Assembly: GCA_017450065.1 (NCBI GenBank)
Contig: JAFSYI010000098.1
Coordinates: forward strand, 1-42,735
Source of the DNA: Lachnospiraceae bacterium
GTDB taxonomy: Bacteria; Bacillota; Clostridia; Lachnospirales; Lachnospiraceae
Length of the DNA stretch: 42,735 nt
Direction of reading: 5' to 3'
Position 1 is the stretch's first letter. Every line of letters begins with the position of its first letter. Under the pieces are notes generated by a model that worked only from the letters and a program-made list of their open reading frames with translations, had not been told where the DNA came from and made no database searches. Position numbers and translations under genes: made by a program. This document shows, piece by piece, positions 10,229 through 41,155 of the stretch.

Positions 10229-10253
10229 TAACTGTTCAGAACAGCACATAAAT
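10229..10253. repeat. Partial copy of the dispersed inverted-repeat element
   Basis: The 25 bases match one end and inner flank of the element at 25674-25839 with a single difference (TAACTGTTCAGAAC versus TAACTATTCAGAAC, then AGCACATAAAT in both). The piece also forms its own palindrome, CTGTTCAGAACAG. It sits between the aminotransferase stop and the FdtA-like start. The other end of the element is missing. Confidence 0.55.
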
Positions 10254-10258
10254 CTACA

Positions 10259-11353: not shown

Positions 11354-11480
11354 CTTTCTATCCTCTTATTTGTCTGTATGATACCTGAATACAGAGTAAT
11401 CATCCGTTGCTTTTGATCCACCGGGAATGAATAAATGATCCGCAGAAACCTCTTGAATACATTAGTGATCCAAGCCGGAT

Positions 11481-12704: not shown

Positions 12705-12763
12705 TACTCCAAACCCCGATATATTAAGCCTGTCATAGGGGATCTGCCTGTCTGCAGTGCTCC

Positions 12764-13966: not shown

Positions 13967-13971
13967 TTATA

Positions 13972-16174: not shown

Positions 16175-16245
16175 ATTAATTATCCCTTGGTTTACTTCGT
16201 ATGTAACTGTTCTGTTTCGGATCCATCCAATACCTGCAGAAATAC

Positions 16246-17838: not shown

Positions 17839-17846
17839 CTATATAA

Positions 17847-19493
17847 CTAATCCTCATCATCAAGGTCGTTAAGTATAAGATGTATCACCCTGTCCTGTCC
17901 CTTCGAGAAGTCCTTCATAAGCTGGAGCCTTCTCATCTCTGCTCTTACATTCGGGGTCATGATGAGCCACTTGATCGTTGAGATTATCGTATTATCATCC
18001 TGCTCCCGACCGATACCGAGATTAATAAAGCCGTTCTGTATGCCCGCAAAAACATGCTCCGCTTCCCTTTCATTCTGGGCCAGTACAACCGACGGAACGC
18101 CCATGCTCGCAAGCTCGAATACGGTACGTCCCTGTGATGTCACCGCAAGATCTGCCTTGCTCATATAGGTGCTTACACGGCTTGCATCAATATGCACGTA
18201 AATATTATTCTCTTCATCCGTAAGTATCTTATCCTTGTGGTCATAGGCAAAGCCCACAAGAAAATGGAACTTGATCTTTGGAAAATCTTTGTGCAGCTCT
18301 CTGGCCACGCCGTACAGCCTTCCTGTAAGATCCGAAGGATCGGCTCCGCCGAAGATAACGACTATATTTTCCACCTTCTCGGAGAACTCCGAAGGCTCCT
18401 CCTCAAGGAACTCATCCCTGATGCAGAAGTATCTGGATCCGTAGTATTCGTTGTGCAGCTTCTCGCCCTTTTCATACAGGGCGTTGATAACAGCGTCGGC
18501 ATACTTGGCTCCCGCTCCGACATCCTCGAAGTTCACGATCCTGCCGGCATATTTATTTACCATGGTCATATACTTAACTGTAGTGTCCAATATATCGTTC
18601 ACTAAAATATCAGGCTTCTCTCTCTTCAGCACCCTTTCGAAATCCTCTTCATCATCTATGATGATGAGGGGGAAATTAGACTGGTTGATCTTGTCAATAC
18701 CTATATCGCTGTCCCTGTCCGTAACAAATACTATATCATGACCTGTCAGCTTATAGGCCAGGGTAAGACATCTGTAGATATGTCCCATTCCGAGACGCAT
18801 CTTTCCGACCGTCCGAAACATTATCCTCTTACGCTTCAAAATGTTCTCGCACAGCACCCAGTCCGAATAGGTATCGATATCAACCGCCTCATCCTCGGGT
18901 ATCTCGAAGATATTGACCTTCTCTCCTATACGCCCCGTTTCTGTCACACATTCCCTGCGGGTTATCAGGAATCCGCCGGTCTCAAGATAATTGGGCGGAA
19001 GCTCCTGAGAGTTAAGACGCTTCTCATAATTCTTCGTTATCCTGCCGTCTCTTAATCCCCATGAAAGATGCGGCTTGTTCATCGCGCTTATAACGGTATC
19101 CCATTCTGATCTCTCGAAGAATTCTATGGCGTTCTTAATTGTTTCCTTCCTGAGAGTGGGAGAAGTGCACTGCATGGTGATAACGGTGTCGTATCTGCAC
19201 CTTAGCTTCTTCTCCATATAGGTTACCGCATGATAAATAACCGGATCGAGGGTCACGGAATCCGTGGCAAGCTCGGCCGGTCTGGCTATAACCTCAACAC
19301 CTCTCTTTTTTACTATGCCTCCAAGCTCCTCATCATCGGTCGATACCGCCACATCAACATCCATCGTCTCCTTAAGAGCCTTGGCATTCTCTATTGAATA
19401 AACTATAAGAGGCTTGCCGCACATTATACGGACATTCTTCCTCGGTATTCGTTTCGACCCGCCTCTGGCGGGTATTACTATTAATGTTTTCAT
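17847..19493 (-). CDS. Fusion of an acylneuraminate cytidylyltransferase-like domain and a PseG-like hydrolase domain
   Basis: Residues 1-225 match the CMP-sugar synthetases NeuA/PseF: LIVIPARGGSKRIPRKNVRI, PLIVYSIENA, VAVSTDDEEL and MQCTSPTLR. Residues from about 232 match PseG, a GT-B-like enzyme that removes UDP from 2,4-diacetamido-trideoxy sugars: MRLGMGHIYRCLTLAYKL with the expected histidine, VVIFGGADPSDLT, and VTSQGRTVFELASMGVP. In pseudaminic acid synthesis these are the fourth and last steps (hydrolysis, then CMP activation), usually separate proteins. PseB, PseC, PseH and PseI are not in the window. The start ATG shares one base with the upstream stop (TAATG). Confidence 0.85.
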   Translation of the reverse strand: MKTLIVIPARGGSKRIPRKNVRIMCGKPLIVYSIENAKALKETMDVDVAVSTDDEELGGIVKKRGVEVIARPAELATDSVTLDPVIYHAVTYMEKKLRCRYDTVITMQCTSPTLRKETIKNAIEFFERSEWDTVISAMNKPHLSWGLRDGRITKNYEKRLNSQELPPNYLETGGFLITRRECVTETGRIGEKVNIFEIPEDEAVDIDTYSDWVLCENILKRKRIMFRTVGKMRLGMGHIYRCLTLAYKLTGHDIVFVTDRDSDIGIDKINQSNFPLIIIDDEEDFERVLKREKPDILVNDILDTTVKYMTMVNKYAGRIVNFEDVGAGAKYADAVINALYEKGEKLHNEYYGSRYFCIRDEFLEEEPSEFSEKVENIVVIFGGADPSDLTGRLYGVARELHKDFPKIKFHFLVGFAYDHKDKILTDEENNIYVHIDASRVSTYMSKADLAVTSQGRTVFELASMGVPSVVLAQNEREAEHVFAGIQNGFINLGIGREQDDNTIISTIKWLIMTPNVRAEMRRLQLMKDFSKGQDRVIHLILNDLDDED

Positions 19494-20932
19494 TATTTAT
19501 TCTGCCTTCTTGTTTTTATGTACATAACAAGCTGCCGGATATCATCCTTCCTTACCGCAGCAAAAATACCCAATGCGGCAAATGCTACCGCATATCTTGT
19601 GACCGCCGTCCTTACTCCGTCACCGTAGAGCAGGCACATGGCTATTCCCAGTCCGCCGCAGATGATCATGGCAGTGAACATAAACATATTGGAATAGACC
19701 TTTTCCTTAAGCACATGGTTGACTGCAATATAATGGAACAGCATAAGTACCATATAGCTTGCCAGAGTAGTATATGCTGCCGCTATGTACCCAAACCTTG
19801 GTATCATAAGATAATTAAGCACATAATTTACAGCAGCCGCAAGAACCGAGCTCATCGCAATGATCGGCGTCTTCTTGTAAAACAGCTCAACATTCACATA
19901 ATTAGTGTAGAAATACTGAGCCAGTGTGCCCAGTGCCACGGGCGGTATCACCCATTTGGCCACCCAGTAGGCTCTCGCTCTCGGAGCCAGTATCATAAGC
20001 GCCTCGGGAGCCACGGTTATAAAGCCAAGCGTAAGGAAGCAGCCAAGCAGCACAAGCTTCTTCTGCATCGACCTTATCCGTTCCCTGCTGCCCTCATGAA
20101 GCTGCTCATTAAGCCACGGCAGCCACGCCTGTCCGATGGCGTTTGTAAATATCGCAAGGATGGTCGCTATGCTGTATCCGTACGTGTACAGACCGGCGTC
20201 CGCATCCGAGCATATATTCTTTATCATTATCCTGTCTATCTGAGCCAGTACCACCATCGCAAGGGCGTGGGGTATCATGGGTACGCCTATCCTCAGGGCA
20301 TATCTCCAGTACTTCGGATGGTAGAACAGCTTTCCCTTCCTAAGAAGCCTTATATAAAATACAGTGCCCATAAGGAAGGTAGGAAGTATGGTTCCCAGTA
20401 TCTTGCCGATATACCGCCTGTCATTAAAAAGATACATAAGGGCGATCGACAGTACCACAGTTCCGATACAGGTTATTAAGGATATAGCGATATTTTCCCT
20501 GTACTTATACTCGAATCTGCATTTCTCCTGCATATACTGGACCGAAGGATAGACCACCAGGTAGGCAAACATTGCCACCACAAGAGGTACCTCATAACCT
20601 ATCAGTCCCGATATGCGTTCCCGGAAAATCATTACGATTATAAGTACACAAAAAGCGAAGGAGCTTGATAAACCCTGCAATGCAGACAAATATTCATCAA
20701 GCTTCTCTCCGTAATCAATCTTAGCCCTGCCTATGCTGTAGACAACGCACAGGCAGGTCACTATATTAAATATTTCCACATACGAATTAAAGATGTTGGC
20801 CCGTCCGTAATTATCGGTAGTCAGCATGCTTGTGTATATCGGGCTTGTGATGATCGCCACGGCCCGTATGGCTATGCTTGACACCGTATACCAGATGCCG
20901 CTCTTTAAAACCTTGTTGGTACTTTTATTCAT
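19493..20932 (-). CDS. Wzx-type polysaccharide flippase (MOP superfamily)
   Basis: The 479-residue protein has about 14 hydrophobic helices and the MOP N-terminal pattern GIWYTVSSIAIRAVAIITSP followed by MLTTDNYGRANIF. It would export the lipid-linked repeat unit. Its ribosome site is weak. It begins 45 bases after the pgi stop, with no promoter evident between, so it is probably read from the pgi promoter. It is the first gene of the cluster; a second, divergent flippase lies at 7272-8756. Confidence 0.88.
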   Translation of the reverse strand: MNKSTNKVLKSGIWYTVSSIAIRAVAIITSPIYTSMLTTDNYGRANIFNSYVEIFNIVTCLCVVYSIGRAKIDYGEKLDEYLSALQGLSSSFAFCVLIIVMIFRERISGLIGYEVPLVVAMFAYLVVYPSVQYMQEKCRFEYKYRENIAISLITCIGTVVLSIALMYLFNDRRYIGKILGTILPTFLMGTVFYIRLLRKGKLFYHPKYWRYALRIGVPMIPHALAMVVLAQIDRIMIKNICSDADAGLYTYGYSIATILAIFTNAIGQAWLPWLNEQLHEGSRERIRSMQKKLVLLGCFLTLGFITVAPEALMILAPRARAYWVAKWVIPPVALGTLAQYFYTNYVNVELFYKKTPIIAMSSVLAAAVNYVLNYLMIPRFGYIAAAYTTLASYMVLMLFHYIAVNHVLKEKVYSNMFMFTAMIICGGLGIAMCLLYGDGVRTAVTRYAVAFAALGIFAAVRKDDIRQLVMYIKTRRQNK

Positions 20933-29097: not shown

Positions 29098-29126
29098 AGA
29101 TGACGAGGAACCCGTCCCCTGTCACT
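29098..29126. repeat. GACAGGGGACGGGTT repeat motif at the permease stop
   Basis: GAGGAACCCGTCCCCTGTCAC shares its core with the REP-like hairpin at 26337-26393. It overlaps the stop codon region of the permease gene. Only one arm is present, so it looks like a decayed or single-arm copy. Confidence 0.45.
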
Positions 29127-30042
29127 TTCCCGCCCCCACAGTAAGACCTTTAACAAGATATTTCCTGAAAAAAGGATATGAAATAATGATCGGGGCAATG
29201 ATAACGACTGCCAGCGCCATTCTGAAGGATTCAGAAGGCACCTTCGTCATTACCGAACCCGTAACGCCTTCATTGGAGGTAAGCACCGAGGCACTTTTCC
29301 CAAGATTATAGAGGACATACTGGAGAGTATAATATCGGCTGTGATTTGAATCGGTGTACAACAGGTTCTCATACCAGCTGTTCCAGTATCCGAAGGCCTC
29401 AAATATCCCGACTGTTATGAGTATCGGTCGCGACAGAGGTATCACAAACTGCCCGAATATCCTGTAGGTCGAAGCCCCGTCTATCCTTGCGGCTTCAAGG
29501 ATCTCCCCCGGGATATTATTGCTGAAATAGGTGCGCATGACTATTATATACCAGCTTGAGCACGCCGTGGGCAGCACAAGGGCAAACAGCGTATTCTTAA
29601 GTCCGAATATCTGTGTATTTACGGCATACGAGGCCGCAAGCCCTCCGCCAAAGAACATCGGCACCATGATCAACACAGTATATAGTCTTCGAAGCTTATA
29701 ATCACTCTGACTTATCGCATAAGCCATCGTACTTATAAGCATCAGTGACAGGACGGTTCCGGTTAAGGTGACCAATACCGTTATCCCGAAGGAGTTGAGG
29801 ATATATCCGGTACTTCTTCCAAGATATCTGTATGCATCAAGTGACCATTCCGCAGGAACAAAGCGGTATCCGTTCCGCGCTATCGATCCCTCCGACGAGA
29901 AGGAGATCACAGCAATAAACACAACCGGCATCAGGACAAAGCCTGATATTATCAGCATAAAGAGGCTTAAAAGCACATCCGTGACTTTACCAGGACCTCT
30001 TATACCTCCGGTTCCGACTTCTGTTCTTATGACTTTACTCAT
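29122..30042 (-). CDS. Sugar ABC importer permease (LplC/MalG type)
   Basis: The 306-residue six-helix permease has the type I importer pattern: an N-terminal helix LLSLFMLIISGFVLMPVVFI, the periplasmic block RFVPAEWSLDAYRYL, and the coupling-helix motif EILEAARIDGASTYRIFGQFVIPLSRP (EAA loop). In the LplC family this protein pairs with an LplB-type permease and a DUF3502-type binding protein for oligosaccharides. The start overlaps the upstream permease by four bases. No own MsmK-type ATPase gene is adjacent; such importers normally share one encoded elsewhere. Confidence 0.92.
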   Translation of the reverse strand: MSKVIRTEVGTGGIRGPGKVTDVLLSLFMLIISGFVLMPVVFIAVISFSSEGSIARNGYRFVPAEWSLDAYRYLGRSTGYILNSFGITVLVTLTGTVLSLMLISTMAYAISQSDYKLRRLYTVLIMVPMFFGGGLAASYAVNTQIFGLKNTLFALVLPTACSSWYIIVMRTYFSNNIPGEILEAARIDGASTYRIFGQFVIPLSRPILITVGIFEAFGYWNSWYENLLYTDSNHSRYYTLQYVLYNLGKSASVLTSNEGVTGSVMTKVPSESFRMALAVVIIAPIIISYPFFRKYLVKGLTVGAGK

Positions 30043-30977
30043 GTCACACCTCCCCCCGGATCTATCCGTTTGATCAACCGGTCAGCGATAAGGAGGATGA
30101 TGCAGCCGATACCGTTCTGCATAAGTCCCGCAGCGGCGCTGAAGCCGTAATTGGACTGCTCAGTAAGAGCCTTGAACACGAATACATCGATGGTCTGTGT
30201 CACCTGTTGAATGGATCCGGAGTTACGTGTCACCTGATAGAACAATCCGAAATCCGAAGAGAGGATATGCCCCAGATTAAGGATGACCAGCACGGTTATC
30301 ACGTTCTTAAGAGAAGGCAGTATCACATGCCTTATGACCTGCCTCACACCGGCACCGTCCACCGCTGCCAGATCGTACAGCTGCGGATCGATTCCCATGA
30401 TATTCGCATAGTACAAAAGCATCGAATATCCCGAACTCTTCCACAGCTCCACTACGACCAGGATGAAGGGCCATACCTCCGGCTCCATATAGAAATTGAC
30501 CGCCTCCGCACCGGCACTTCTTAATATCGTATTTATAAGGCCCTTGTCCGCAGACAGGAAAGCATATACGAAATAGCTGACGATGACCCACGAAAGAAAA
30601 TACGGAAGCAGCATGATCACCTGCACTGCCGATCTTATCCTTGCCGAACCGATATATGACAGGATGATCGCCAGTCCTACCGGTATAACCGTTCCCAGTA
30701 TCAGAAAAACGATATTATACAGAAGTGTATTCCTTATCACCTGCCACATCTGGGGATTAAGGAATAAGAAACGGAAATTATTTAACCCTGCCCATTCACT
30801 TCCGAAGAAGAGACTGTAGACAAAGCTCTTTCCGGGGATAAGCCTGTAGCGCTTGAACGCCATCACGATACCGAATAAAGGCAGATAGCAGAACAAGGCA
30901 TACCACAGAAGGGTCGGCAGCGATAATACAGTAAGTGCGGTATTCTTTTCACCGAATCTGTTTCTCTTATTCTTCAT
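30039..30977 (-). CDS. Sugar ABC importer permease (LplB/MalF type)
   Basis: The 312-residue permease has six predicted helices. Landmarks are LLWYALFCYLPLFGIVMAFK, LLYNIVFLILGTVIPVGLAI and the EAA loop DPQLYDLAAVDGAGVRQVIR with the conserved glycine. LplB-type proteins form a heterodimer with LplC for import of oligosaccharides. It overlaps the exporter gene before it by 11 bases, so translation is coupled. Confidence 0.92.
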   Translation of the reverse strand: MKNKRNRFGEKNTALTVLSLPTLLWYALFCYLPLFGIVMAFKRYRLIPGKSFVYSLFFGSEWAGLNNFRFLFLNPQMWQVIRNTLLYNIVFLILGTVIPVGLAIILSYIGSARIRSAVQVIMLLPYFLSWVIVSYFVYAFLSADKGLINTILRSAGAEAVNFYMEPEVWPFILVVVELWKSSGYSMLLYYANIMGIDPQLYDLAAVDGAGVRQVIRHVILPSLKNVITVLVILNLGHILSSDFGLFYQVTRNSGSIQQVTQTIDVFVFKALTEQSNYGFSAAAGLMQNGIGCIILLIADRLIKRIDPGGGVT

Positions 30978-33096
30978 TCCCTTCAGGTGCCTTTACAGCC
31001 ATCTCCTCCATAGCATATAATCTCCGGTATTCTTCGCATGAGGTCATAAGTTCCTCATGGCTTCCCTGTGCAAGTATCCTCCCGCCATCTACATAGAATA
31101 TCCTGTCCGAATCCACTACGGTTGACAGTCTGTGTGCTATCATAACGATCGTACTCTTACCGTGTATATTCGCAAGTGCCTGCCTTATCTTAGCCTGAGT
31201 GACGTTATCCAGCGCGCTGGTAGCCTCATCCAGCAGCAGTATGCTGCACTCACGCAGCAGACTTCTGGCTATCGCAAGGCGCTGGCGCTGCCCTCCCGAC
31301 AGATTCACTCCGCCCTCACCTATTACGGTATCATACTTATCGGGCATCGCTTCAATATCTTCTGCTATGCAGGCAAGCTCAGCCACCCTGCGCATCTCTT
31401 CATCGGTCAGATCCTCCCTGACCATCCTGAAGTTATCCCGTATGCTCATGCCAAAGATATAAGGTGACTGGGAAACTACGCTCATGCATCCGCGCAGAGT
31501 GTCCTGATCCAGCTCCTTCACATCAATACCGTCGATCATAACCGTACCGCTGAATGCCTCATACAGCTTACTGATGAGATTAAAGACAGTTGTTTTTCCT
31601 GAACCGGATCTTCCCACCAGAGCAACCGTTTCTCCGGCCTTGATCGTAAAATTCATATCAAACAACACCCATCTTATAGAAGAATTCATCGAATGGATAT
31701 TATAGGAGAACCTTACGTCCCGAAAGCTTATCTCACCGCGCACATTATCCGGTGATCTTGTGCCGTAGTGTTCCTTGGGAAAAACAGTATCATCCGTTAT
31801 ATCGCACAATCTCTCACAGGAAAGATTAAATTCGGTTATAAAATCAAGGATCGTCCCAAGCAGGGTTACCGCCGGAGTACCGAGACCCGAGTAGTAATTG
31901 AAGAGCACCAGCGCTGTGGCCACGGTAAAGGTACCTTCCCTGAGCAATAAAGCCAGAGTTAATGTATAGATAAACAATCCCCCTTCGCTGAAGAAATCCT
32001 CCACCAGCTTATACCGTATATTCCTGCCGTACCAGAACAATCTGGCGTTATTTGCTTCATTGATCCTAAGTCCCAGCTCCTTCCTGAAGGAATCCTCCGC
32101 GTGAACAAGCTTGATATCCTTGGATCCGCGCACCATCTCTCCTACTGTTGTAGTGTATCTTTCGTTGGCATTTCTGAACAGACGCCCGTTCTGTTTGGAT
32201 ATCTTCTCTCTGCGAAGCTCCATGAATATACGTACTGCGAAGATGACTGCTGTAAGGGCGAAGATCAGAGGACTGACTATCAGCATCGCACACAATATTC
32301 CGATGTACTGACATATCTGTGACAGATTATCCGCAAGAGTGTTAAAAGCTGTCGCAAGATTCGCGGTATCGGATGTAAGTCTCTGTATGAACAGCCCGGT
32401 TCCGTTATCATCCATACAACGGTTCGTTATCTTAAGGACGCTGTCGGAAATATCAGCCTCAAGGGCACTCAGAGTCCTGCTGTACACCACATTATACGCC
32501 ATGTTGCAGCCAAGAAGGACTGCACGGGATATATAGTTTACCGCAAAAAGAGCGATCGCCGTGTAAATGAGCCGTCTGAATGCGGAATCGGTAAATGCCA
32601 CTATGATCCTTGCACTGAGGATAGGGGCGATTATCATAAGAATAACGCTTATAAATTGAAGACCTACTGCAAGTAAAAGATACTTCTTATTCGGTGCGGT
32701 ATACTTCCATGCGAAGGAAAGATTATCTGCCAGTGTTTTCCTGACAGTAAAAGAATACTCAACGATATTGGCATCGTTAAGATACGCCCATCCCGGAGCG
32801 CTGCTCCAGTCATGAAGCACCTTGATAAGGATAAGTGAGTCGGATTCATTTATCGGATCATATCCTGTACCCGCGACATCAATGATCACCTTAAGCTTTC
32901 CCGACTTCTTCTGTATCTCAAGCTTAACCGGCGTCTGAGTTCCCAGTGCTTCCCTGTAAGACAGCAGGATCTCCTCCATGCTGAGCCGGAGCCTTAGCCG
33001 GTCATCCTTGGATATACCGTTTTTCTCAAGCACCGTACCAGCCTCTTTGACAAATCTGTTTATGCAGTTACGTTCCAATGTTCCTTTTAATATCAT
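30967..33096 (-). CDS. ABC exporter (TMD-NBD) with an N-terminal degenerate RsbW-like HATPase domain
   Basis: Residues about 1-115 look like a serine-kinase/anti-sigma HATPase fold: an N-box-like RLRLSMEEILLSYREALG and a G1-like VAGTGYDPINESD. The catalytic residues are altered: the Mg-binding Asn is Ser, and the Asp of DxGxG is displaced. Residues about 130-415 are a six-helix exporter domain. From about 450 there is a complete nucleotide-binding domain with Walker A GRSGSGKTT, signature LSGGQRQRLAIARSLL, Walker B ILLLDEATSALD and IAHRLSTV. It would work as a homodimer. It lies between the binding protein (four-base overlap) and the two importer permeases, an unusual position for an exporter. 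Its substrate is unknown. Confidence 0.85.
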   Translation of the reverse strand: MILKGTLERNCINRFVKEAGTVLEKNGISKDDRLRLRLSMEEILLSYREALGTQTPVKLEIQKKSGKLKVIIDVAGTGYDPINESDSLILIKVLHDWSSAPGWAYLNDANIVEYSFTVRKTLADNLSFAWKYTAPNKKYLLLAVGLQFISVILMIIAPILSARIIVAFTDSAFRRLIYTAIALFAVNYISRAVLLGCNMAYNVVYSRTLSALEADISDSVLKITNRCMDDNGTGLFIQRLTSDTANLATAFNTLADNLSQICQYIGILCAMLIVSPLIFALTAVIFAVRIFMELRREKISKQNGRLFRNANERYTTTVGEMVRGSKDIKLVHAEDSFRKELGLRINEANNARLFWYGRNIRYKLVEDFFSEGGLFIYTLTLALLLREGTFTVATALVLFNYYSGLGTPAVTLLGTILDFITEFNLSCERLCDITDDTVFPKEHYGTRSPDNVRGEISFRDVRFSYNIHSMNSSIRWVLFDMNFTIKAGETVALVGRSGSGKTTVFNLISKLYEAFSGTVMIDGIDVKELDQDTLRGCMSVVSQSPYIFGMSIRDNFRMVREDLTDEEMRRVAELACIAEDIEAMPDKYDTVIGEGGVNLSGGQRQRLAIARSLLRECSILLLDEATSALDNVTQAKIRQALANIHGKSTIVMIAHRLSTVVDSDRIFYVDGGRILAQGSHEELMTSCEEYRRLYAMEEMAVKAPEGNEE

Positions 33097-34697
33097 AAAT
33101 TACCCAGATATTCATCAAGCTGCCTCTGCGCTTCTTCCCTCACTTCGTCCAGTCCCGCAGCTTCCATCTGCTTTCTCATTTCAATGATCGTCTCATCCGT
33201 GTCGGACGTACCCGTAACGAATTCTGCGGAATAATTACTCCATATCGCATCAAGAGCAGCGATCTGCGCCTCAACAGGTGTCGGATCGAAGCTGAAGCCC
33301 TGTGTATCGCTTTCTTTTGCGTTCTTATAGCCTTCATAGACCTTAGTCCACTGATCCGGATCCGCAAGGTTATCCTTCCCCGCCGAAACCACTGATGCGC
33401 TTATGGCCGGTCCCGTTACGAAATTGTCCAGCATATAGTGTTCGCTGCCCTCGTCCGTCCTTATGACCGTATCCTCATAATAATTGAAATGCCTGCCTTC
33501 TATTCCGTAAGCAAGAGTGTCCCTGAATTCCCGATCGGTATACAGGAGCTCAATATATTTAAGACATGCCATTACATGCTCCTCATCGGCTGCGGCATTG
33601 ATGGCGGTCAGTGCACCCTGTTGTGTAGCTCTGGACATATTCGGACCTATGAATCTTACAAGTTTGACATTAAAGCCCACGGTATCGGGATCCGACCAGC
33701 CCTTGAACCCCGTCCAGGCAGTTCCGGTACGTATGGGGTTTCTCAGCGAGTACGGCACTTCCTCGGTTGTTGCCGCATCCGGATTGATGTATCCCTTCTG
33801 ATACCATTCGTGGAGCTTCCTTAACATGGCGATATATTCTTCATCATCGAACACCGGGATTATCTTAGTTCCCTCATCTGTACCTGCTTTACTGTAGGGT
33901 GTGACCAGATACCTGCTCACTATCCTTTCATGTACCTGAAACAGACCGCTCAATCCTCCGTTTGCGATATAGAGGGGGTAATCGTCCGGATTATCCTCTT
34001 TCCACGCCTTAAGATAGGGTTCCAGATCAGCGAAATCCATCTCCTCCGGAAGCTTCATACCCTTCTCGCCTTCGTAATAATCACTGTTCATACGGAAGAA
34101 TACCTCTGCACCAAGATCCTTAAGAAGCGGAACCCCATATATTTTGCCCTCGAGAGTTCCTATCTCCCACCATGGATCCACAGCCTCATATAACGCAGGC
34201 GTAACCTCCTTAACCAAAGACGAAATATCGTAAAAGTAGCCCCTTCCCGCATTAATGTCAAAATCATTGCACCAGTCGCAGCTGAAGGTCATATCATAAT
34301 ATTCACCGGTCTGAAGATCCAGATCGAACTGTTCCTCGTTCTTGAATATCATATTGACAGTAACGCCGATCTTTTCTGCGGATATCTCATTGGCTCTTGC
34401 AAGCACCTCCGGAAGTGCATCCGGTGCCTCACCCGTAGGCGAATACGTCCACCATGTAAGCTCTATCGGCTCCTTTGTTCCGGCAGCCTGTTCTGTTTTC
34501 GCACCTTCCTTACCGTCCGGTTCTGCCATGTTATCTTTACCATTTGCGGCTTCCCCGGTATCCCCGGCTTCCGCCCCGATGGCGGCAGCACTGTCGGATG
34601 TACTGCCCTGCGCACTACCCGCTCCCGATGCCGCGCATCCTGTGATTATTAGCGCCGATACAGCAACCATCACATATGTTATTATATTCTTCTTCAT
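33093..34697 (-). CDS. Sugar-binding lipoprotein of the importer (LplA-like, DUF3502-type C-terminus)
   Basis: The 534-residue protein has a lipoprotein signal peptide ending SALIITGC (Cys21), a Gly/Ser/Ala/Glu-rich linker to about residue 75, then a family 1 extracellular solute-binding fold beginning PIELTWWTYSPTGEAPDALP. The C-terminal ~130 residues (QGFSFDPTPVEAQIAALDAI … AGLDEVREEAQRQLDEYLGN) fit the DUF3502 pattern seen in LplA proteins. It would catch oligosaccharides for the LplB/LplC permeases. GGGAGGATATT precedes the ATG. Confidence 0.92.
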   Translation of the reverse strand: MKKNIITYVMVAVSALIITGCAASGAGSAQGSTSDSAAAIGAEAGDTGEAANGKDNMAEPDGKEGAKTEQAAGTKEPIELTWWTYSPTGEAPDALPEVLARANEISAEKIGVTVNMIFKNEEQFDLDLQTGEYYDMTFSCDWCNDFDINAGRGYFYDISSLVKEVTPALYEAVDPWWEIGTLEGKIYGVPLLKDLGAEVFFRMNSDYYEGEKGMKLPEEMDFADLEPYLKAWKEDNPDDYPLYIANGGLSGLFQVHERIVSRYLVTPYSKAGTDEGTKIIPVFDDEEYIAMLRKLHEWYQKGYINPDAATTEEVPYSLRNPIRTGTAWTGFKGWSDPDTVGFNVKLVRFIGPNMSRATQQGALTAINAAADEEHVMACLKYIELLYTDREFRDTLAYGIEGRHFNYYEDTVIRTDEGSEHYMLDNFVTGPAISASVVSAGKDNLADPDQWTKVYEGYKNAKESDTQGFSFDPTPVEAQIAALDAIWSNYSAEFVTGTSDTDETIIEMRKQMEAAGLDEVREEAQRQLDEYLGNL

Positions 34698-34777
34698 AAT
34701 ATCCTCCCTGAAATAAGATTGATCAAACCACTTATTAAATATTCCCTTCTCAAAGAATTCTGATTCATCAAAAAATC

Positions 34778-34912
34778 GTAACTATTCAGAACCCCATTCG
34801 CAAAGCCGTGCTTCGCACTTCGTTTGCTCATGTGGTTACTTCGCCATATACATACAATCCGGCATTCATGCAAGCATGTTCCGTCTTGTATGTGCATGGC
34901 TCTGAATAGACA
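34778..34912. repeat. Inverted-repeat element, second copy, in the importer leader
   Basis: GTAACTATTCAGAACC (34778-34793) pairs imperfectly with GGCTCTGAATAGAC (34899-34912). Inside, GCCATATACATACAA pairs with TTGTATGTGCATGGC. The flank TCATCAAAAAATC before the left arm is shared with the copy at 25674. In the importer transcript the last arm is followed by GATTTTTTGATGA, so the mRNA could form a terminator-like hairpin about 80 bases before the lipoprotein start. Confidence 0.65.
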
Positions 34913-34948
34913 AAAAATCTTTAAATAAATGCCCCTGACCATGGCTTA

Positions 34949-34977
34949 AGAATACCACAAATCAGGAGCATGTACAA
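34949..34977 (-). promoter_or_regulatory. Probable promoter of the importer operon
   Basis: Minus-strand TTGTAC (34972-34977) and TATTCT (34949-34954) are 17 bases apart, and the -10 is extended by TGG. Transcription would start near 34942 and run through the repeat element before reaching the lipoprotein gene. Confidence 0.5.
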
Positions 34978-35062
34978 ACGATATATATATCTTGATTTAC
35001 TCTCAACCTTACTCTCAACGCTCCGAGTTGAACGCTGATATTATTCGGAAATTATAGAATCC

Positions 35063-35096
35063 TGAATTTCATCAGAAATTCGGGATTCGTACTCGA
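35063..35096 (+). promoter_or_regulatory. Hairpin in the divergent region
   Basis: GAATCCTGAATTTC and GAAATTCGGGATTC pair over 13 positions with one mismatch around ATCA. No T-run follows on the plus strand. It may be an operator or a leader structure. A second hairpin, GGTtCTGCT-AAA-AGCAGgACC, follows directly. Confidence 0.4.
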
Positions 35097-35135
35097 CCAG
35101 GTTCTGCTAAAAGCAGGACCGTGTCATGCGGAACG

Positions 35136-35187
35136 CATGATTTCTGAATGCATTTCCTTGTTTGCATTCAGAAAGTCATGGTATAAT
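35136..35187 (+). promoter_or_regulatory. Probable promoter of the kinase/partner-switching operon, overlapped by a palindrome
   Basis: TTGTTT (35158-35163) and TATAAT (35182-35187) are 18 bases apart, and the -10 is extended by TGG. The palindrome CATGATTTCTGAATGCA … TTGCATTCAGAAAGTCATG overlaps the -35 and spacer. A repressor bound there would block this promoter. The leader to the start codon is about 95 bases. Confidence 0.5.
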
Positions 35188-35289
35188 AAACGGAAACGGA
35201 GTGCGCAGAAAGAAAAGCATATCCGGCAGCAACAGGCTATAATCGGAATATAATACGATTCCCGAAAATGAAACCGAGGAGGATAATAA

Positions 35290-36888
35290 ATGAATGTCAT
35301 CATCTATGACTTCGGTACCAGCAGCGTAAAAACCTGCCTTTTTAAAATAGATTCCGAAATCCGTCTTATAGCTGCTTCCTCTGCCGGTTATGCTCTTTAT
35401 GTAAGCGATGACGGAGGAGCGGAACAGGATACGGCGGAATGGTGGAATGCCATTTGTTCCACTACCCGGGATCTCTTTAGGATGTGTGACATAAAGCCCG
35501 AAGAAGTAGACGGGATTTCATTTTGTTCACAGATACAGGGCTCTGTTTTTGTGGATGAAAAAGGGAATGCCTTAAGACGCCCCATGAACTATCTGGATCA
35601 GAAAGGGGTAAAGGAATATAAGGAGTGCATGGGTAGCGGACTGATCAAAATATCCGGCTGCAATCTGTTCAAGCTTTTACGAAATCTCACCGTAAATTAT
35701 GCGGCGTCCGTCAGCGTCAAAGATCCCGTCTGGAAATATAAATGGGTGGAAAAAAATGAACCGGAAATATATAATAAAATTTATAAATGGCTGGATATAA
35801 ACGACTATCTTATAGCACGCTGCACCGGCAGGATCGTCCGTACCGCAGATTCGGCTTTTGCCACCTTCCTTTATGATACCCGCAAAGGCCGGGAAGGCTG
35901 GAACAAAGGACTATTAAAAATGTACGGTATCAATCCGCAACATATGCCGGATATTATCGACTGTACGGAAAAAGCCGGTGAGCTGACAAGTAAAGCCGCA
36001 GCTGATCTGGGACTTAAAGAAGGCATTCCTGTTTTCGCCGGTGGCGGCGATACTACCTTTGTAAGTATCGGTGCAGGCTCGGCAAACGTCGGAGATACAC
36101 ATATTTATGTTGGAACTTCAGGCTGGGTGTCAACATTTATGGATCATCAGGTGGTTGATATCAACGCCATGATCACCGGAGTACTCTCTGCCTGCCACGG
36201 TTATTACAATTATTATGCCGAACTGGAAACCGCCGGCAAATGCATTGACTGGATCAAGAACAACCTCATACAGGATAAAATAAACCTGGATAAATACGGC
36301 AATGAGCCCAACATCACATCGGAATTTGAAAGCTTTTTCGTTTATATATTCGATTATCTATCAGATGAGATCAGTAAATCTCCTCCGGGAGCAAACGGCG
36401 TGATCTTCACCCCCTGGCTTCACGGGAACCGGTGCCCCTTTGAAGATAACAACGCGGCAGGTATTTTCTTCAATATCCGGATCAATACCGGAACAAAAGA
36501 TATGTTACGCGCCGTGTTCGAAGGGATCTGCTACCATCTTCGCTGGCTTCTGGAATGCGAAGACAAAAAAGTAAAAACCTCCGACACCATCCGTTTTGTG
36601 GGCGGTGCTTCTCTCTCCCCGGTTCTGTGTCAGATGCTTGCAGACATAATCGGGCGAAAAACAGAAACCATAAACAATGCCCAGGAGGTAGGTGCCATGG
36701 GAGCTGCCATGGTTGTTGCATGCGGCATTCGGGGCGGTAATGTTTCGGAGCTTGCCGGGAAGCTTGTAAAACCAAACCATACATACGTTCCCGATATAAA
36801 ATACAGGGAAGTATACGAAAAAAATTATCGTGTTTTTAAAAAATTGTACAAAACCAATGCTTCCCACTTCAGGGAGCTCAATACATAA
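35290..36888 (+). CDS. FGGY-family carbohydrate kinase (xylulokinase-like)
   Basis: The 532-residue kinase has the FGGY two-domain fold: the N-terminal phosphate loop IYDFGTSSVKTCLF, GISFCSQIQGSVFVDEKGN, the second-domain GTSGWVSTFM, and the ATP-site signature FVGGASLSPVLCQMLADIIG with EVGAMGAAM. It phosphorylates a pentose, hexose or sugar alcohol; the closest recalled type is xylulokinase, but FGGY specificity cannot be read from sequence alone. GAGGAGGATAATAA precedes the ATG. The next gene follows after 25 bases, linking sugar phosphorylation to a phosphatase-based signalling set. Confidence 0.9.
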   Translation: MNVIIYDFGTSSVKTCLFKIDSEIRLIAASSAGYALYVSDDGGAEQDTAEWWNAICSTTRDLFRMCDIKPEEVDGISFCSQIQGSVFVDEKGNALRRPMNYLDQKGVKEYKECMGSGLIKISGCNLFKLLRNLTVNYAASVSVKDPVWKYKWVEKNEPEIYNKIYKWLDINDYLIARCTGRIVRTADSAFATFLYDTRKGREGWNKGLLKMYGINPQHMPDIIDCTEKAGELTSKAAADLGLKEGIPVFAGGGDTTFVSIGAGSANVGDTHIYVGTSGWVSTFMDHQVVDINAMITGVLSACHGYYNYYAELETAGKCIDWIKNNLIQDKINLDKYGNEPNITSEFESFFVYIFDYLSDEISKSPPGANGVIFTPWLHGNRCPFEDNNAAGIFFNIRINTGTKDMLRAVFEGICYHLRWLLECEDKKVKTSDTIRFVGGASLSPVLCQMLADIIGRKTETINNAQEVGAMGAAMVVACGIRGGNVSELAGKLVKPNHTYVPDIKYREVYEKNYRVFKKLYKTNASHFRELNT

Positions 36889-36913
36889 AACTGCCGTATT
36901 AAAAGGAGTATGC

Positions 36914-38323
36914 ATGGATACAAATAAAATTTTAAAAGATAACGAAATTGAGGCAAATCAGCTACTGACAAAGATCATTCTGGTTACCATCGGGATCGTT
37001 GCGATTACATGGCTTCTTTTTGAAACCGGTTTTTTCTACATTCGCGTTCAATTCCGCGGATTAATGATTTTTAATATACTGCTGCTTGCCACAGTTGCCG
37101 TTATAAGCCGGATCTACAAATATGAAAAGGGATGGATCAAGTATATCCTTATGGGATCCATGACCATAGTCTTTGCCGTTACCACCTCGGCACTGACTTA
37201 TAATGTTACCCTTTTGATAGTCATTCCGATCCTCATGTCCATACGGTATTTCAACAGAAAATACTCTGTCTTTATTGCCATCCTGTCGATCATCGTTTTC
37301 TATATTGCATATCTCTACGGGGCAAATCACGGGATGCTGGATATGAATTTTGTCCAGTATACTCCCGGTACCGTCATTGTTACAAACGATAATATGTGGC
37401 TGGATGATGCCGTCATTGATATCCCGTATGACCCTGTACTGATGCTCTTTAACACCACCGTCTCCAACTACTTCGTCAAACTTCTGCAGTTTATTATAAT
37501 CTCCGCAGCAAGTCTGGCGCTTGTGGTCTGTTGTCAGGGACTACTGCAAAAACAGAAGGAACTTACAGAAAGCACGGCAAGGATCGGAGCCGAACTGGAA
37601 CTCGCCGAAAAAATCCAGTCCGACATGCTTCCTACCATTTTCCCTACGTTTTCCGGACAAAAGGAATTTGATATTTATGCATCCATAACCACTGCAAGAG
37701 AAGTCGGCGGAGATTTCTATGATTTTTTTATGATTGACGACGACCATCTTGCGATCGTTATCGCCGACGTTTCCGGTAAAGGTATTCCCGCTGCCATGTT
37801 TATGATGACGGCCAAAACCACGATCAAGGACTATGCGCTGACGCACAACAGTACATCCGAAATATACACCATAGTGAATGACCGTCTGTGCGAAAACAAC
37901 GAAGCCGAAATGTTCGCCACATCATGGATCGGAATTCTGAATATAAGAACCATGATCATGCAGTATACCAATGCCGGTCACAACTACCCTGTTCTTATGA
38001 GAAAAGGGGAACCCTGTGAATTTCTGACAGATAAACACGGATTATTCCTTGCGGGCCTTGAGGGAACACAGTATACGCAAAGCGAAATACAACTTGCCTC
38101 CGGGGATCGTCTGCTGCTTTATACGGATGGTGTTACCGAAGCTCACAGTAAGGACAACGCAATCTACGGGGAAGACCGTTTAAAAAATCTCATCAACGAT
38201 ACCGCCGATGAACCCGGAGAAACTGTACTCTCCCGAATTTTAGACGATGTAAACCGGTTCGCCGAGGGCGCGGAGCAGTTTGATGATATCACCATGACAT
38301 TTTTGATGATCAAAGACTTTTGA
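36914..38323 (+). CDS. Membrane-bound SpoIIE-type PP2C serine phosphatase
   Basis: The 469 residues begin with six helices (TM1 about 20-42 to TM6 about 205-225), with an external loop of ~40 residues between TM5 and TM6 (TPGTVIVTNDNMWLDDAVID). A short coiled coil (QKQKELTESTARIGAELELA) leads to the PP2C domain with EVGGDFYDFFMI, VIADVSGKGIPAAMFM, LLYTDGVTEAHS and QFDDITMTF, so the metal-binding aspartates are present. It would dephosphorylate the STAS protein encoded next. AAAAGGAG just before the ATG at 36914 decides against the longer frame from 36830, which would overlap the kinase gene. Confidence 0.92.
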   Translation: MDTNKILKDNEIEANQLLTKIILVTIGIVAITWLLFETGFFYIRVQFRGLMIFNILLLATVAVISRIYKYEKGWIKYILMGSMTIVFAVTTSALTYNVTLLIVIPILMSIRYFNRKYSVFIAILSIIVFYIAYLYGANHGMLDMNFVQYTPGTVIVTNDNMWLDDAVIDIPYDPVLMLFNTTVSNYFVKLLQFIIISAASLALVVCCQGLLQKQKELTESTARIGAELELAEKIQSDMLPTIFPTFSGQKEFDIYASITTAREVGGDFYDFFMIDDDHLAIVIADVSGKGIPAAMFMMTAKTTIKDYALTHNSTSEIYTIVNDRLCENNEAEMFATSWIGILNIRTMIMQYTNAGHNYPVLMRKGEPCEFLTDKHGLFLAGLEGTQYTQSEIQLASGDRLLLYTDGVTEAHSKDNAIYGEDRLKNLINDTADEPGETVLSRILDDVNRFAEGAEQFDDITMTFLMIKDF

Positions 38324-38377
38324 TTTAATGTATGTTAAGATAAAAGAAAATACTGTAACTATTCAGGAGGAAAAGGA

Positions 38378-38683
38378 ATGGAACTGCAACTGGAAAGCAA
38401 AAAAGAAGGCAATGAACTGACGATATTATTAGTTGGTGAAGTTAATACCGGAACCGCTCCAAATCTCAAAGAACTGATCGATTCGGAGATTGCCGATTCG
38501 AACGTTATTATTTTTGATTTTGAAAAATGCGATTTCGTATCCTCGGCAGGACTTCGTGTTCTGCTTGCTACCTATAAGACTTTAAAAGCCAAAAAAGGAC
38601 AGATGAAGCTTGTCAACATAGGTCCCAATTTCAAAGAAGTGCTGAATATCACCGGTCTGGATAAGGTTTTCGGATGCAAGTAA
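38378..38683 (+). CDS. STAS-domain anti-sigma-factor antagonist (SpoIIAA/RsbV-like)
   Basis: The 101-residue protein is a single STAS domain: LTILLVGEVNTGTAPNLKEL, IIFDFEKCDFVSSAGLRVLL with the serine normally phosphorylated (SSAG), and KLVNIGPNFKEVLNITGLDK. Length and layout match RsbV/SpoIIAA. It is the expected substrate of the PP2C phosphatase before it and of the HATPase kinase two genes on. The ribosome site AGGAGGAAAAGGA is strong. Confidence 0.93.
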   Translation: MELQLESKKEGNELTILLVGEVNTGTAPNLKELIDSEIADSNVIIFDFEKCDFVSSAGLRVLLATYKTLKAKKGQMKLVNIGPNFKEVLNITGLDKVFGCK

Positions 38684-38715
38684 TGTATGTTTATAAGAAG
38701 AGGTAATTGTATTTT

Positions 38716-39342
38716 ATGAATGTGTATGATTTTGACGGTACAATATATTATCCTGACTGTGCCGTAAGCTTTGCACTCTGGTGCGTAAGAAAGCACCCTT
38801 CCCTGATTTTTACTTATCTTCCGAAGGCACTCGTAACCATAATCGGACACGGGATAGGAAAGGTCCCGAGATATGTTATGGAACGCACCTTTTTCAGCTT
38901 CCTTTGTAAAGTAAAGGATTTTGACGAGCAGATCGAGAGTTTCTGGGACAAACACGAGAAAAATATTTCCGACTGGTATCTTGCCCAGAAAAGGCCGGAC
39001 GATCTTATTATCAGCGCCTCTCCGAACTGCATCATCGAACCGATTGCCAGAAGACTCGGTGTTAACTACATAGCAACGGAATACGATCGTGACGTGGGCG
39101 CCTTCGTGGATAATCTGATGTATGCAAGAGAAAAAGCGGCCTACATTTTTGACCATGACTTTCCGGAGATCGAGAATTTTTATTCCGATTCACTTGCCGA
39201 CACACCAATGGCTCTTTGTGCCGAAAAAGCACATTTGATAACAAATAAGGCACAAACGGTAAACGACTGGCCGAAGCTTGATGTTGAAACCTTACAAAAA
39301 GTACACGAAAAGATCGAAAGTGGCTGGTCGGTTCATTTATAG
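38716..39342 (+). CDS. HAD-IB-type phosphatase (phosphoserine-phosphatase-like)
   Basis: The 208 residues fit a HAD phosphatase of the SerB/PGP-like group: motif I MNVYDFDGTIYYPD (two Asp at DFDGT), motif II LIISASP, a cap with FLCKVKDFDEQIESFWDKHE, and motif III/IV YSDSLADTPMA. It would hydrolyse a small phosphate ester; the substrate is unknown. TTG 38707 and ATG 38716 are both possible starts; AGAGG lies 12 bases before the ATG and only three before the TTG, so the ATG is preferred. It is not a usual member of partner-switching sets yet sits tightly between the STAS and kinase genes. Confidence 0.87.
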   Translation: MNVYDFDGTIYYPDCAVSFALWCVRKHPSLIFTYLPKALVTIIGHGIGKVPRYVMERTFFSFLCKVKDFDEQIESFWDKHEKNISDWYLAQKRPDDLIISASPNCIIEPIARRLGVNYIATEYDRDVGAFVDNLMYAREKAAYIFDHDFPEIENFYSDSLADTPMALCAEKAHLITNKAQTVNDWPKLDVETLQKVHEKIESGWSVHL

Positions 39343-39352
39343 CAGAAAACCA

Positions 39353-39769
39353 ATGAAAATAATTCAGGTAGATTCTACAATTGAGAACCTCTCTTCCGTC
39401 ATGGAATTCATTAATTCCGAACTGGATGACATTCATTGTCCCGAACAGATCGGGGCAAAGATCAAGCTTGCGATCGATGAGCTCTTCGGTAATATCTGTT
39501 TCTATGCCTATGATCCCATCCCCGGACCCGTTAAGATATGTCTGGAAAGTGAGACAGATCCTCCTGCCGTAGTTATTTCCTTTACAGACAAAGGAAAACC
39601 CTACAACCCTCTGGAAGCAGATGAACCCGATGTGGAATTAAGCGGCGAAGACCGGCCCATCGGCGGTCTGGGAATTTTTCTTGTTCAAAGCACAATGGAT
39701 GATATGAAATACGAATACAAAAATGAACAAAACATCCTGACGTTTAAGAAATATCTTAATGAAGACTGA
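39353..39769 (+). CDS. RsbW/SpoIIAB-like HATPase serine kinase (anti-sigma-like)
   Basis: The 138-residue protein has the HATPase_c fold of anti-sigma kinases: an N-box IKLAIDELFGNICFYAY with the conserved Glu and Asn, G1 ISFTDKGKPYNPLEAD, and G2 IGGLGIFLVQSTMDDMKYEY. It should phosphorylate the STAS protein and bind a partner that is released when STAS is dephosphorylated. The start at 39353 lies 10 bases after the HAD stop and has a poor ribosome site, so translation is probably coupled. No sigma factor gene follows, so the partner is unknown. Confidence 0.92.
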   Translation: MKIIQVDSTIENLSSVMEFINSELDDIHCPEQIGAKIKLAIDELFGNICFYAYDPIPGPVKICLESETDPPAVVISFTDKGKPYNPLEADEPDVELSGEDRPIGGLGIFLVQSTMDDMKYEYKNEQNILTFKKYLNED

Positions 39770-39812: not shown

Positions 39813-41111
39813 CTATTCTTTCTTCATCCCATGATTCTTAAAGCTGCCGAGCATGACTGAAAGCGTTGTTACAAGCGGCAGATCCTTATCATCAAATACC
39901 ATTATCACGAAATTGTCAAAAATCATATCCCTTACAAACATACCAAGACTTGTAAGTCCGATTTTCTGGCTGATAGTCCCTATCAAAGCTCCGTTCCTGT
40001 ATACCCCGAACTGATCCCCTATAGTTGCTGTCATCTCACGGACCACAACCTCTCCATCCTTTGTCTTCATCCGGAATTTAGTGCGCAAAAGACGGAACAT
40101 CCATCTCATGCGGCCGTATTTCTCATCATTCATGTATATATCATAGGTCGGAAAAAGGATATGCCATATGATCCTCTTGCTTTTTACGATCTCGCAGCCA
40201 TCACGGACATCCTCCAATCTGAACGTCCAGAACGGGAATACTCCGTGAAGATAATATCTGGGATTCCCCTGCATGTCCAAAAGATTATATTTCTGATGCA
40301 TAAGGGCAAATATCTCGTCAAATACATAAACGTTCGGAATTTTACTCTCAAACAGGTCTGCAAAATCACAGGCTGCGCGTCCTGTTTTTGAGAAATTCTC
40401 AAACATGCTGATATAAAAATCAGGCAGCATACGTGATAAAAGATGATAGAGCTGTCCATTTCCGAAATCATCCCGATCCCACTGCGTATATACGATATGC
40501 GCCCCGGCAGCCTCCGGATCTGCAAGCATTTTCGTAAGAGGGCTTGCTCCAAATGTAAATGTCCCGAACAGATAGTATCCGAATAAAAATGAGCCCTTGT
40601 CCGTGGGACCGTATATTATACAGTCATCCTCGACATTCACGACTTTACCTATCCATGGTCTGCCCATTGGCGTGTCTATATCCTTAAACACGTTGTACAG
40701 CTCTTCTATGGACGCACTTACTTCATCACTCTGTTTAATGCCATCAACCGCATAATTCATTGCCTTATTGAAAGCATAATACTGCATGGCCAGCCCATAG
40801 ATCAGGTTCATGGTGAACAGTCCCAGGCCTTTTCCGTTGAAATCCTCTTTGATCAGCGAATAAACGCCAAAAACGATCATAGCAATTCCCGACAGAGAGA
40901 ATACAAGCTTTTTCGCTATAAGAAATGCTTTGCCCATCGGCCCGTTGAAAGCAATACCCAGCCTGAAATAACCAAAGCAAAAGGCCAGTGCGGATACCGC
41001 TACGATGATCCACGTCAGAAAAGATGTTCTTACGGGAAAGAATGCCATGATGCCAAACGCTATCAGCATCAACACCGCCCCGAGAGTGATATTAAACAGT
41101 TTTTTCCCCAT
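39813..41111 (-). CDS. Membrane protein with a C-terminal LURP-one/Tubby-like domain
   Basis: The 432 residues start with four helices (about 5-120). A large soluble region follows without recognisable motifs (FGYYLFGTFTFGASPLTKML, VYDFDEIFALMH-like stretches). The last ~120 residues (FPTYDIYMNDEKYGRMRWMF … GDQFGVYRNGALIGTISQKIG … DNFVIMVFDDKDLPLVTTLS) show the repeated beta pattern of LURP-one/phospholipid-scramblase-like domains. Function unknown; membrane-lipid or envelope sensing is a guess. GGAGG five bases before the ATG at 41111 excludes the in-frame TTG at 41123. A lipoprotein gene lies 44 bases upstream on the same strand. Confidence 0.7.
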   Translation of the reverse strand: MGKKLFNITLGAVLMLIAFGIMAFFPVRTSFLTWIIVAVSALAFCFGYFRLGIAFNGPMGKAFLIAKKLVFSLSGIAMIVFGVYSLIKEDFNGKGLGLFTMNLIYGLAMQYYAFNKAMNYAVDGIKQSDEVSASIEELYNVFKDIDTPMGRPWIGKVVNVEDDCIIYGPTDKGSFLFGYYLFGTFTFGASPLTKMLADPEAAGAHIVYTQWDRDDFGNGQLYHLLSRMLPDFYISMFENFSKTGRAACDFADLFESKIPNVYVFDEIFALMHQKYNLLDMQGNPRYYLHGVFPFWTFRLEDVRDGCEIVKSKRIIWHILFPTYDIYMNDEKYGRMRWMFRLLRTKFRMKTKDGEVVVREMTATIGDQFGVYRNGALIGTISQKIGLTSLGMFVRDMIFDNFVIMVFDDKDLPLVTTLSVMLGSFKNHGMKKE

Positions 41112-41155
41112 TGTTTCCTCCAAATCACTTATTATTGGCTTCCATCAATCACCCA

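Follow-up and report, generated by a model that had tools for sequence, protein, structure and literature searches.

Partner-switching systems of the Rsb/SpoIIA type combine a PP2C phosphatase (RsbU/SpoIIE), a STAS protein (RsbV/SpoIIAA), and a serine kinase (RsbW/SpoIIAB). In the canonical switches, the RsbW-fold domain binds the unphosphorylated STAS protein, whereas phosphorylation promotes binding in the BtrV-BtrW pair, according to the available text of PMC8256260. SypA-SypE, BtrV-BtrW, and other switches covered there are likewise built from partner-switching proteins, some with a STAS output given as unknown, and that text mentions no transporter-borne RsbW-like domain. In CapK-CapS and VapK-VapS (EMBO J 2026, PMC13373217), a GHKL kinase is paired with a STAS protein and the output is not a sigma factor; the STAS protein governs either DNA binding or a toxin, and the accessible part of the paper describes neither a transporter nor a dead kinase domain. 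In MlaB-MlaF (eLife 2020, PMC7367683), an ATP-binding cassette (ABC) transporter is controlled through direct contact with a STAS protein, and a phosphomimetic change of MlaB Thr52, a site phosphorylated in other STAS proteins, weakened binding; the available sections of that paper give no evidence of MlaB phosphorylation, and MlaB binds the ABC ATPase domain itself. SulP/SLC26 transporters, named in parts of PMC8256260 and PMC7367683, have a partner-switching fold, the STAS domain, built into the transporter. Here we describe a stretch of 42,735 nucleotides from a Lachnospiraceae bacterium (assembly GCA_017450065.1, contig JAFSYI010000098.1, positions 1 to 42,735; the whole stretch is hereafter called the window, and its host genome, 88% complete, is coded G000). 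It encodes an MsbA-type ABC exporter with an RsbW/SpoIIAB-like N-terminal domain that has lost its catalytic motifs and, on the opposite strand, a complete partner-switching gene set.

This locus resembles the Rsb/SpoIIA systems in having the same three families with intact active-site motifs and a phospho-acceptor Ser, as well as in the fold of the exporter domain. Unlike them, it has as its candidate output a transporter bearing a kinase-dead copy of the kinase domain, and the search of the host genome returned no SigB/F/G-type sigma factor. Compared with MlaB-MlaF, the receptor in fusions of this kind would be a separate dead kinase domain, and kinase or phosphatase genes lie nearby in some loci. 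SulP/SLC26 proteins carry the STAS half of the switch, whereas the proteins described here carry the kinase half, in a dead form. A literature search made without subscription papers or preprints returned no paper on RsbW-like domains fused to transporters, which does not imply their absence from print.

The earlier note on this DNA, made from the sequence alone, had described the exporter N terminus as a HATPase-like domain that looks catalytically dead. Because residues 1 to 120 have no Pfam match at an E value of 0.1, this assignment needed testing. Profile-profile comparison of these residues with live RsbW-type kinases scored 97.0% in hhalign, and a second run gave 96.6%, against a maximum of 9.9% in 100 column shuffles; since neither the column shuffles nor a reversed profile gave anything comparable, a chance resemblance was rejected. 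The AlphaFold2 model of the domain had a predicted local distance difference test (pLDDT) score of 90.0, and its best 15 Foldseek matches in the PDB were all SpoIIAB, RsbW, or anti-SigF (UsfX-type) entries, including SpoIIAB (1th8_A; E value, 3.8e-6). Structure model and profile match thus place residues 1 to 120 in the anti-sigma-kinase fold and exclude the lack of a HATPase fold, which the earlier note had named as an outcome that would refute it. The N-box Asn, the G1 Asp, and the GGxG motif of the ATP site are absent, and the domain is therefore a homologue of these kinases but not an active one, as the earlier note had supposed. A profile of the dead domains matched only four sequences of solved structures (E values, 0.5 to 2.3), none of them of the RsbW family, and a live-kinase profile matched two, VraS and RsbW. 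The placement of the domain against the transporter was not read from the model of the whole exporter because of its low scores (mean pLDDT, 68.6; predicted template modeling score, 0.49). The transporter part has its transmembrane and nucleotide-binding domains in a single chain and retains the Walker A, LSGGQ, Walker B, and H-loop motifs (residues 495, 599, 620, and 653). We consider it somewhat more likely than not that the N-terminal domain is a non-catalytic descendant of an RsbW/SpoIIAB-type kinase that has been kept as a STAS-docking module.

Similar domains occur on other transporters. The exporter domain alone, used as a query, matched 8 of 145 genomes (assumed to be the same set as in the cassette search described below), including the window's own, on ABC exporters and on SDF sodium:dicarboxylate symporters. 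A nine-row profile matched 51 of 397 genomes of the family, with live kinases among the weak matches, and a scan of an 84,980-species collection with the domain sequence returned 39 loci. The RsbW-like domains are fused to the N terminus of SDF symporters (N-SDF), the N terminus of ABC exporters (N-ABC), the C terminus of MATE transporters (C-MATE), and the C terminus of SBP_bac_3-permease-ATPase importers or their ATPase (C-ABC). Clostridia and Spirochaetes have dead domains on at least four classes of transporter. All 35 domains that are stand-alone (16), fused to PP2C (18), or otherwise placed (1) have the N-box Asn, versus 5/70 N-SDF, 0/10 N-ABC, 1/22 C-ABC, and 4/15 C-MATE domains. The G1 Asp is likewise found in 34 of the 35 nontransporter domains (the remaining one has a gap), versus 0/10 N-ABC, 0/22 C-ABC, and 6/15 C-MATE domains. 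Most transporter-borne domains keep the catalytic Glu and the G1 Gly, which argues that these are not in free decay. A tree was built from 95 of 152 domains (thinned at 60% identity within each class), with few alignment columns relative to the number of rows. In this tree, the live kinases are united in a single clade (100/99), as are the C-ABC domains (100/94), and the exporter domains are nested among N-SDF domains (99/94); a smaller subgroup of exporter domains with L087 is supported at 84/87, and the exporter domains as a single group only at 49/0. A natural homologue of the exporter without the N-terminal domain (L142; 575 amino acids, 40% identity) points to an accessory role of the domain.

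We scored a transporter gene as linked to partner switching when at least one STAS, PP2C, or live kinase gene lay within 5 kb of it. Linkage was found for 5 of 36 fused SDF genes versus 0 of 29 plain SDF genes in the sampled genomes (one-sided Fisher test, p = 0.046) and for 8 of 14 fused MATE genes versus 0 of 22 plain ones (p = 1e-4); these p values are optimistic because the counts include related genomes. In a second sample, composed of loci of the 84,980-species scan, which were found by the domain sequence alone and have no plain SDF control, 17 of 36 fused SDF genes were linked. Counted by locus, the linked SDF fusions amount to 5/36 in the genome sample and 16/30 in the species scan. 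Because one of the G099 loci was first reached via its RsbW gene and would score positive, the G099 loci were left out of the SDF genome sample together with its plain control L219; the same G099 locus, reached again by the domain sequence (L160), is missing from the SDF gene counts and included in the locus counts. L208 has no scorable SDF open reading frame (ORF), L110 was counted as plain although it has an N-domain match upstream of a stop, and L211 ("longN," a 410-amino-acid gene), which has no partner-switching gene, was placed in neither SDF group. Sequence extends for 5 kb on both sides of 24 of the 36 fused SDF genes (4 linked) and 22 of the 29 plain ones (0 linked). The fused-MATE counts exclude loci reached via RsbW (such as L048), and 5 of the 12 MATE loci used (L025, L087, L153, L154, and L163) were reached via a neighboring dead domain.

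Full sets of STAS, PP2C, and live kinase genes within 5 kb of the transporter gene were identified at eight loci in total, a minority of the linked loci, with fused SDF at L088, L137, L152, L160, and L161 and fused MATE at L087, L107, and L154. At L087, a single operon encodes an SDF fusion, a STAS protein, a MATE fusion, a GNAT-domain protein, a PP2C phosphatase, and a live kinase, which lies just beyond 5 kb of the SDF gene and was not counted there. L161 (titled Sphaerochaeta) has the order STAS, PP2C-kinase fusion, SDF fusion, and ABC-importer fusion, with spacings of 12 to 40 bp, and L107 encodes a STAS protein, a MATE fusion, a GH3-type enzyme, a PP2C phosphatase, and a kinase. GH3-family enzymes are encoded at L107:7123-8865 and L048:4577-6181, in operons with STAS, MATE fusion, and PP2C genes. 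Proteins in which STAS is fused to an APH-type phosphotransferase are encoded near dead-domain transporters at L088:10043-11233, L139:16736-17923, and L154:2756-4102.

These features point, somewhat more strongly than not, to partner switching in which a transporter, not a sigma factor, is the output. The membrane PP2C/SpoIIE phosphatase would sense a signal and remove the phosphate from the SSAGLR Ser of the STAS protein, this Ser being taken as the phospho-acceptor by analogy with RsbV/SpoIIAA. The unphosphorylated STAS protein would then bind the dead domain on the transporter and alter transporter activity, until the live RsbW-type kinase rephosphorylated it and so released it from the dead domain. 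The dead copy would thereby serve as a STAS receptor unable to phosphorylate its ligand. We infer the STAS binding, its dependence on phosphorylation, its sign, and its effect on transport. What was observed is that the domain has the kinase fold but not the catalytic residues, that the PP2C, STAS, and kinase proteins have intact motifs, that SDF and MATE fusions are linked to switch genes, and that no SigB/F/G-type factor was found. The presence of dead copies on four kinds of transporters, some beside complete switch sets, suggests that the switches may control transport directly and not gene expression.

Several observations weigh against this interpretation. In the genome sample, 31 of the 36 SDF fusions have no partner-switching gene within 5 kb, and all three parts lie within that distance at only 1/36 (genome sample) and 4/30 (species scan) fused SDF loci and in only 3/14 cases for fused MATE genes. 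The linkage counts include close relatives, many of them rabbit-gut metagenome-assembled genomes, and the MATE-borne domains are less degenerate than the others in the G1 Asp counts given above. STAS and SpoIIE genes were present in 32 of 32 tested genomes with dead-domain transporters, a potentially refuting check that was passed but is weak; the presence of these genes is not discriminating. The N-ABC exporter class itself is barely linked: among six relatives with at least 7 kb of sequence upstream of the exporter (G035, G009, G018, G342, a degraded copy in G008, and L129), a STAS or live kinase gene occurs within 6 kb in none, and a PP2C gene is near the exporter in one (L129, at 3.7 kb). 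SDF and MATE fusions are linked more often than the plain genes. The co-occurrence of the exporter with switch genes, which the earlier note had suggested searching for, is hardly seen. The sign of STAS binding is also uncertain, given that phosphorylation promotes binding in BtrV-BtrW (PMC8256260, available text).

The families and places of the genes of both operons were as the earlier note had given them (Pfam and NCBIfam; Table 1), and the partner-switching set is complete, with PP2C, STAS, and kinase motifs intact. The minus-strand operon runs from the solute-binding protein gene through the exporter gene to the two permease genes, with adjacent ends overlapping by 4 to 11 bases. The solute-binding lipoprotein, to which we apply the label CUT1/LplA on the assumption that it follows its family, and the two BPD permeases constitute an importer of the CUT1/LplABC type, in which the ATPase is shared from elsewhere (Pfam). 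A single MalK-type ATPase match in the host genome (G000:C80) presumably serves this importer, and the notion that the nucleotide-binding domain of the exporter must power it was rejected because of this match. On the plus strand, the FGGY-PP2C-STAS-HAD-RsbW cassette (35290 to 39769) is complete with intact catalytic motifs, and the gaps between successive genes are 22, 54, 23, and 10 bp with the preferred ATG starts (36911, likelier than GTG 36830, for PP2C; 39353, likelier than TTG 39278, for the kinase). The PP2C protein has all of the motifs GGDFYD, ADVSGKG, YTDG, and DDIT, which we take to be its metal-site motifs; the SSAGLR Ser is kept in 29 of 29 distinct STAS proteins (the window's counted via an identical copy in G026); and the alignment of the RsbW-like kinase shows the N, G1, and G2 boxes of a GHKL serine kinase. 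The exporter, PP2C, STAS, and kinase motifs were assigned after those of their families. A scan of positions 34600 to 35400 gave one promoter-like site versus 2.5 expected in shuffles and one terminator-like site versus 0.3 expected.

Table 1. Features of the two divergent operons (positions in the window)
Feature	Position	Strand	Basis
Importer permease, LplC-like	29122..30042	-	Pfam BPD_transp_1
Importer permease, LplB-like	30039..30977	-	Pfam BPD_transp_1
ABC exporter, MsbA type, 709 aa	30967..33096	-	Pfam ABC_membrane and ABC_tran
Dead RsbW/SpoIIAB-like N-terminal domain of exporter, residues 1-120	32737..33096	-	Profile, AlphaFold2, Foldseek
Solute-binding lipoprotein of sugar importer, C-terminal DUF3502	33093..34697	-	Pfam PF12010 (6e-23); same gene order in L125-L128
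FGGY carbohydrate kinase, closest to the XylB model but under its cut-off	35290..36888	+	Pfam FGGY_N and FGGY_C; TIGR01312, 283 bits versus cut-off of 380
Membrane PP2C/SpoIIE phosphatase, multi-transmembrane N terminus	36911..38323	+	Pfam SpoIIE (1e-48); 5 hydrophobic segments
STAS protein, anti-anti-sigma type, single-domain	38378..38683	+	Pfam STAS (2e-19); TIGR00377 above cut-off
HAD-IB phosphatase	38707..39342	+	Pfam HAD; also beside FGGY in relatives that have no partner-switching genes close by
Live RsbW-like serine kinase, HATPase_c_2	39353..39769	+	Pfam (1.5e-21); alignment

Elsewhere in the window, a second STAS-domain protein (1806 to 2564, minus strand; 252 amino acids) has its STAS domain at residues 158 to 251, preceded by 157 residues without a Pfam match. 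A 436-amino-acid protein with a hydrophobic N terminus is encoded on the opposite strand after the kinase gene (39813 to 41123, minus strand), with no Pfam match above the cut-off and no NCBIfam match. Polysaccharide biosynthesis genes at 7272 to 20932 encode two flippase-type proteins (Polysacc_synt), glycosyltransferases, a sugar transferase, and FdtA-like and DegT-type enzymes.

The minus-strand operon, with its order of solute-binding protein, exporter, LplB, and LplC, recurs in L125, L126 (G035), L127 (G009), and L128. The same type of exporter is flanked by an ABC ATPase and an SBP_bac_11 protein in molybdate-importer-like operons of L129 and L130 (G018), the latter among molybdenum-cofactor genes; in G226 (L085), it comes after an ABC ATPase where the contig ends, in G342 (L101) the gene before it encodes an alpha/beta hydrolase, and in G007 (L022) only 604 bases of upstream sequence are available. 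In the molybdate-type loci (L129 and L130, about 8600 to 13500, and the end of L085), the dead-domain exporter is inserted between importer parts, as in the sugar operon. A degraded operon in G008 (L021:9861-11338) has an exporter without its membrane part, in which the N-terminal domain adjoins the ATPase domain, and a 152-amino-acid piece of the solute-binding protein. As for the cassette, G026 has a PP2C-STAS-HAD-RsbW set that is 94% identical to the window's (100% for the STAS protein), with GGDEF and EAL genes upstream and no importer beside it; FGGY is there reduced to a 111-bp remnant plus its last bases (L038:2990-3198). G088 has FGGY-PP2C-STAS-HAD without an importer or kinase gene beside it, and in the available stretches of G010, G032, and G031, HAD accompanies FGGY with no partner-switching genes. 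G026 (82% complete) and G088 are both absent from the 8 of 145 genomes matched by the exporter-domain search; in G088, the profile search matched a different fusion, of the SDF type. A general conserved linkage of the two divergent operons was rejected, as exporter and cassette each occur without the other. FGGY goes with HAD, and the exporter and cassette may have come together in the window by chance or recently.

In line with the earlier note, a Pfam scan of 33 ORFs in the window, which does not extend to smaller or overlapping ORFs, revealed no sigma factor. The SigB/F/G model TIGR02980 had no match over the cut-off in the host genome at its 88% completeness. The best two of its sub-threshold matches are in frames of 403 and 256 amino acids, the latter of a size that would fit FliA. 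G026 and G088 also lack a SigB/F/G-type factor over the cut-off, which was exceeded in 3 of 12 genomes tested (G148, G422, and G248). The host genome contains 7 SpoIIE, 6 STAS, and 3 RsbW-type kinase places, and its other two RsbW-type kinases (C17 and C90) also adjoin ABC exporter genes. At C17 (L036:10169-15005), STAS and RsbW-like kinase genes are directly downstream of an ABC exporter gene pair, with a similar arrangement in G011 and G032 (L043 and L053). At C90 (L037:5762-13599), genes for NHLP-type bacteriocin exporters (TIGR03796 over the cut-off, TIGR03797 just under it) adjoin a gene for a PP2C-RsbW fusion, and STAS is matched at C90:13333-13599; BLAST revealed similar PP2C-kinase/exporter loci in G032 and G035 (L052 and L051).

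Different roles for the cassette have to be weighed. The earlier note had the cassette's STAS protein dock on the window exporter and tie sugar uptake or export to the cassette's signal; the two operons are indeed divergent neighbors, an FGGY sugar kinase and a sugar importer make a plausible physiological unit, and dead domain, STAS protein, and kinase are all present in the window. We nevertheless regard this specific pairing as improbable, given that G035 and G009 have the exporter with no cassette beside it, that in G026 and G088, where most of the cassette occurs, there is neither an importer next to it nor an exporter-domain match, and that FGGY pairs with HAD in the absence of a switch in G010, G032, and G031. 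Docking of a STAS protein on such a domain fits the linkage of SDF and MATE fusions elsewhere, whereas coupling of these two operons does not agree with the relatives, in which STAS is absent near the exporter in 6/6 and PP2C in 5/6; a lack of conserved linkage is what the earlier note itself had named as refuting it. The partner of the window exporter is probably one of the six STAS-domain proteins of the genome, among which that of the neighboring cassette is a candidate but not a favored one. The cassette might instead be a conventional switch that targets a transcription regulator or sigma factor elsewhere, such as the FliA-size factor, with the exporter domain unrelated to it; its kinase keeps every catalytic motif, and a 256-amino-acid sigma factor of FliA size exists in the host genome. 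Such an arrangement is a real but rather unlikely possibility in view of the lack of a SigB/F/G-type factor over the cut-off in G000, G026, and G088.

The dead domain could also be an add-on that serves a structural or ligand-sensing purpose and is unconnected with partner switching, the linkage then reflecting a shared regulatory region. Partner-switching genes are missing from the vicinity of most fused SDF genes and, where the upstream sequence is long enough, of the exporter in five of six N-ABC relatives, and the exporter homologue L142 does without the domain; the contrast between fused and plain genes (both MATE and SDF) and the occurrence of same-family domains on four transporter classes nevertheless make such an add-on unlikely in our estimate. 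RsbW and SpoIIAB act as dimers, and the dead domains share the kinase fold, so a dead domain might pair with a live RsbW-like kinase in a mixed dimer, recruiting it to the membrane or inhibiting it, instead of binding STAS. However, five fused SDF loci (L136, L138, L146, L148, and L151) have a STAS gene but neither a live kinase nor a PP2C gene within 5 kb of the transporter gene, and we hold the mixed dimer to be quite improbable.

Taken beyond the single locus, the favored reading of a transporter as the switch output leads to a more tentative proposal, to which we give somewhat less than even weight. In Clostridia and Spirochaetes, partner switching may be a general, fast, post-translational controller of transport, in which dead domains would be plug-in STAS receptors on at least four unrelated transporter classes and one PP2C-STAS-kinase set would gate several transporters without a sigma factor; the window exporter would be one such receptor. 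If this is true, a logic known mainly from the sigma-factor control of sporulation and general stress would, in bacteria of the gut and rumen, also directly switch transporters for amino acids, sugars, and drugs. It would also help to explain the PP2C, STAS, and RsbW-type genes of genomes in which no SigB/F/G-type factor was found.

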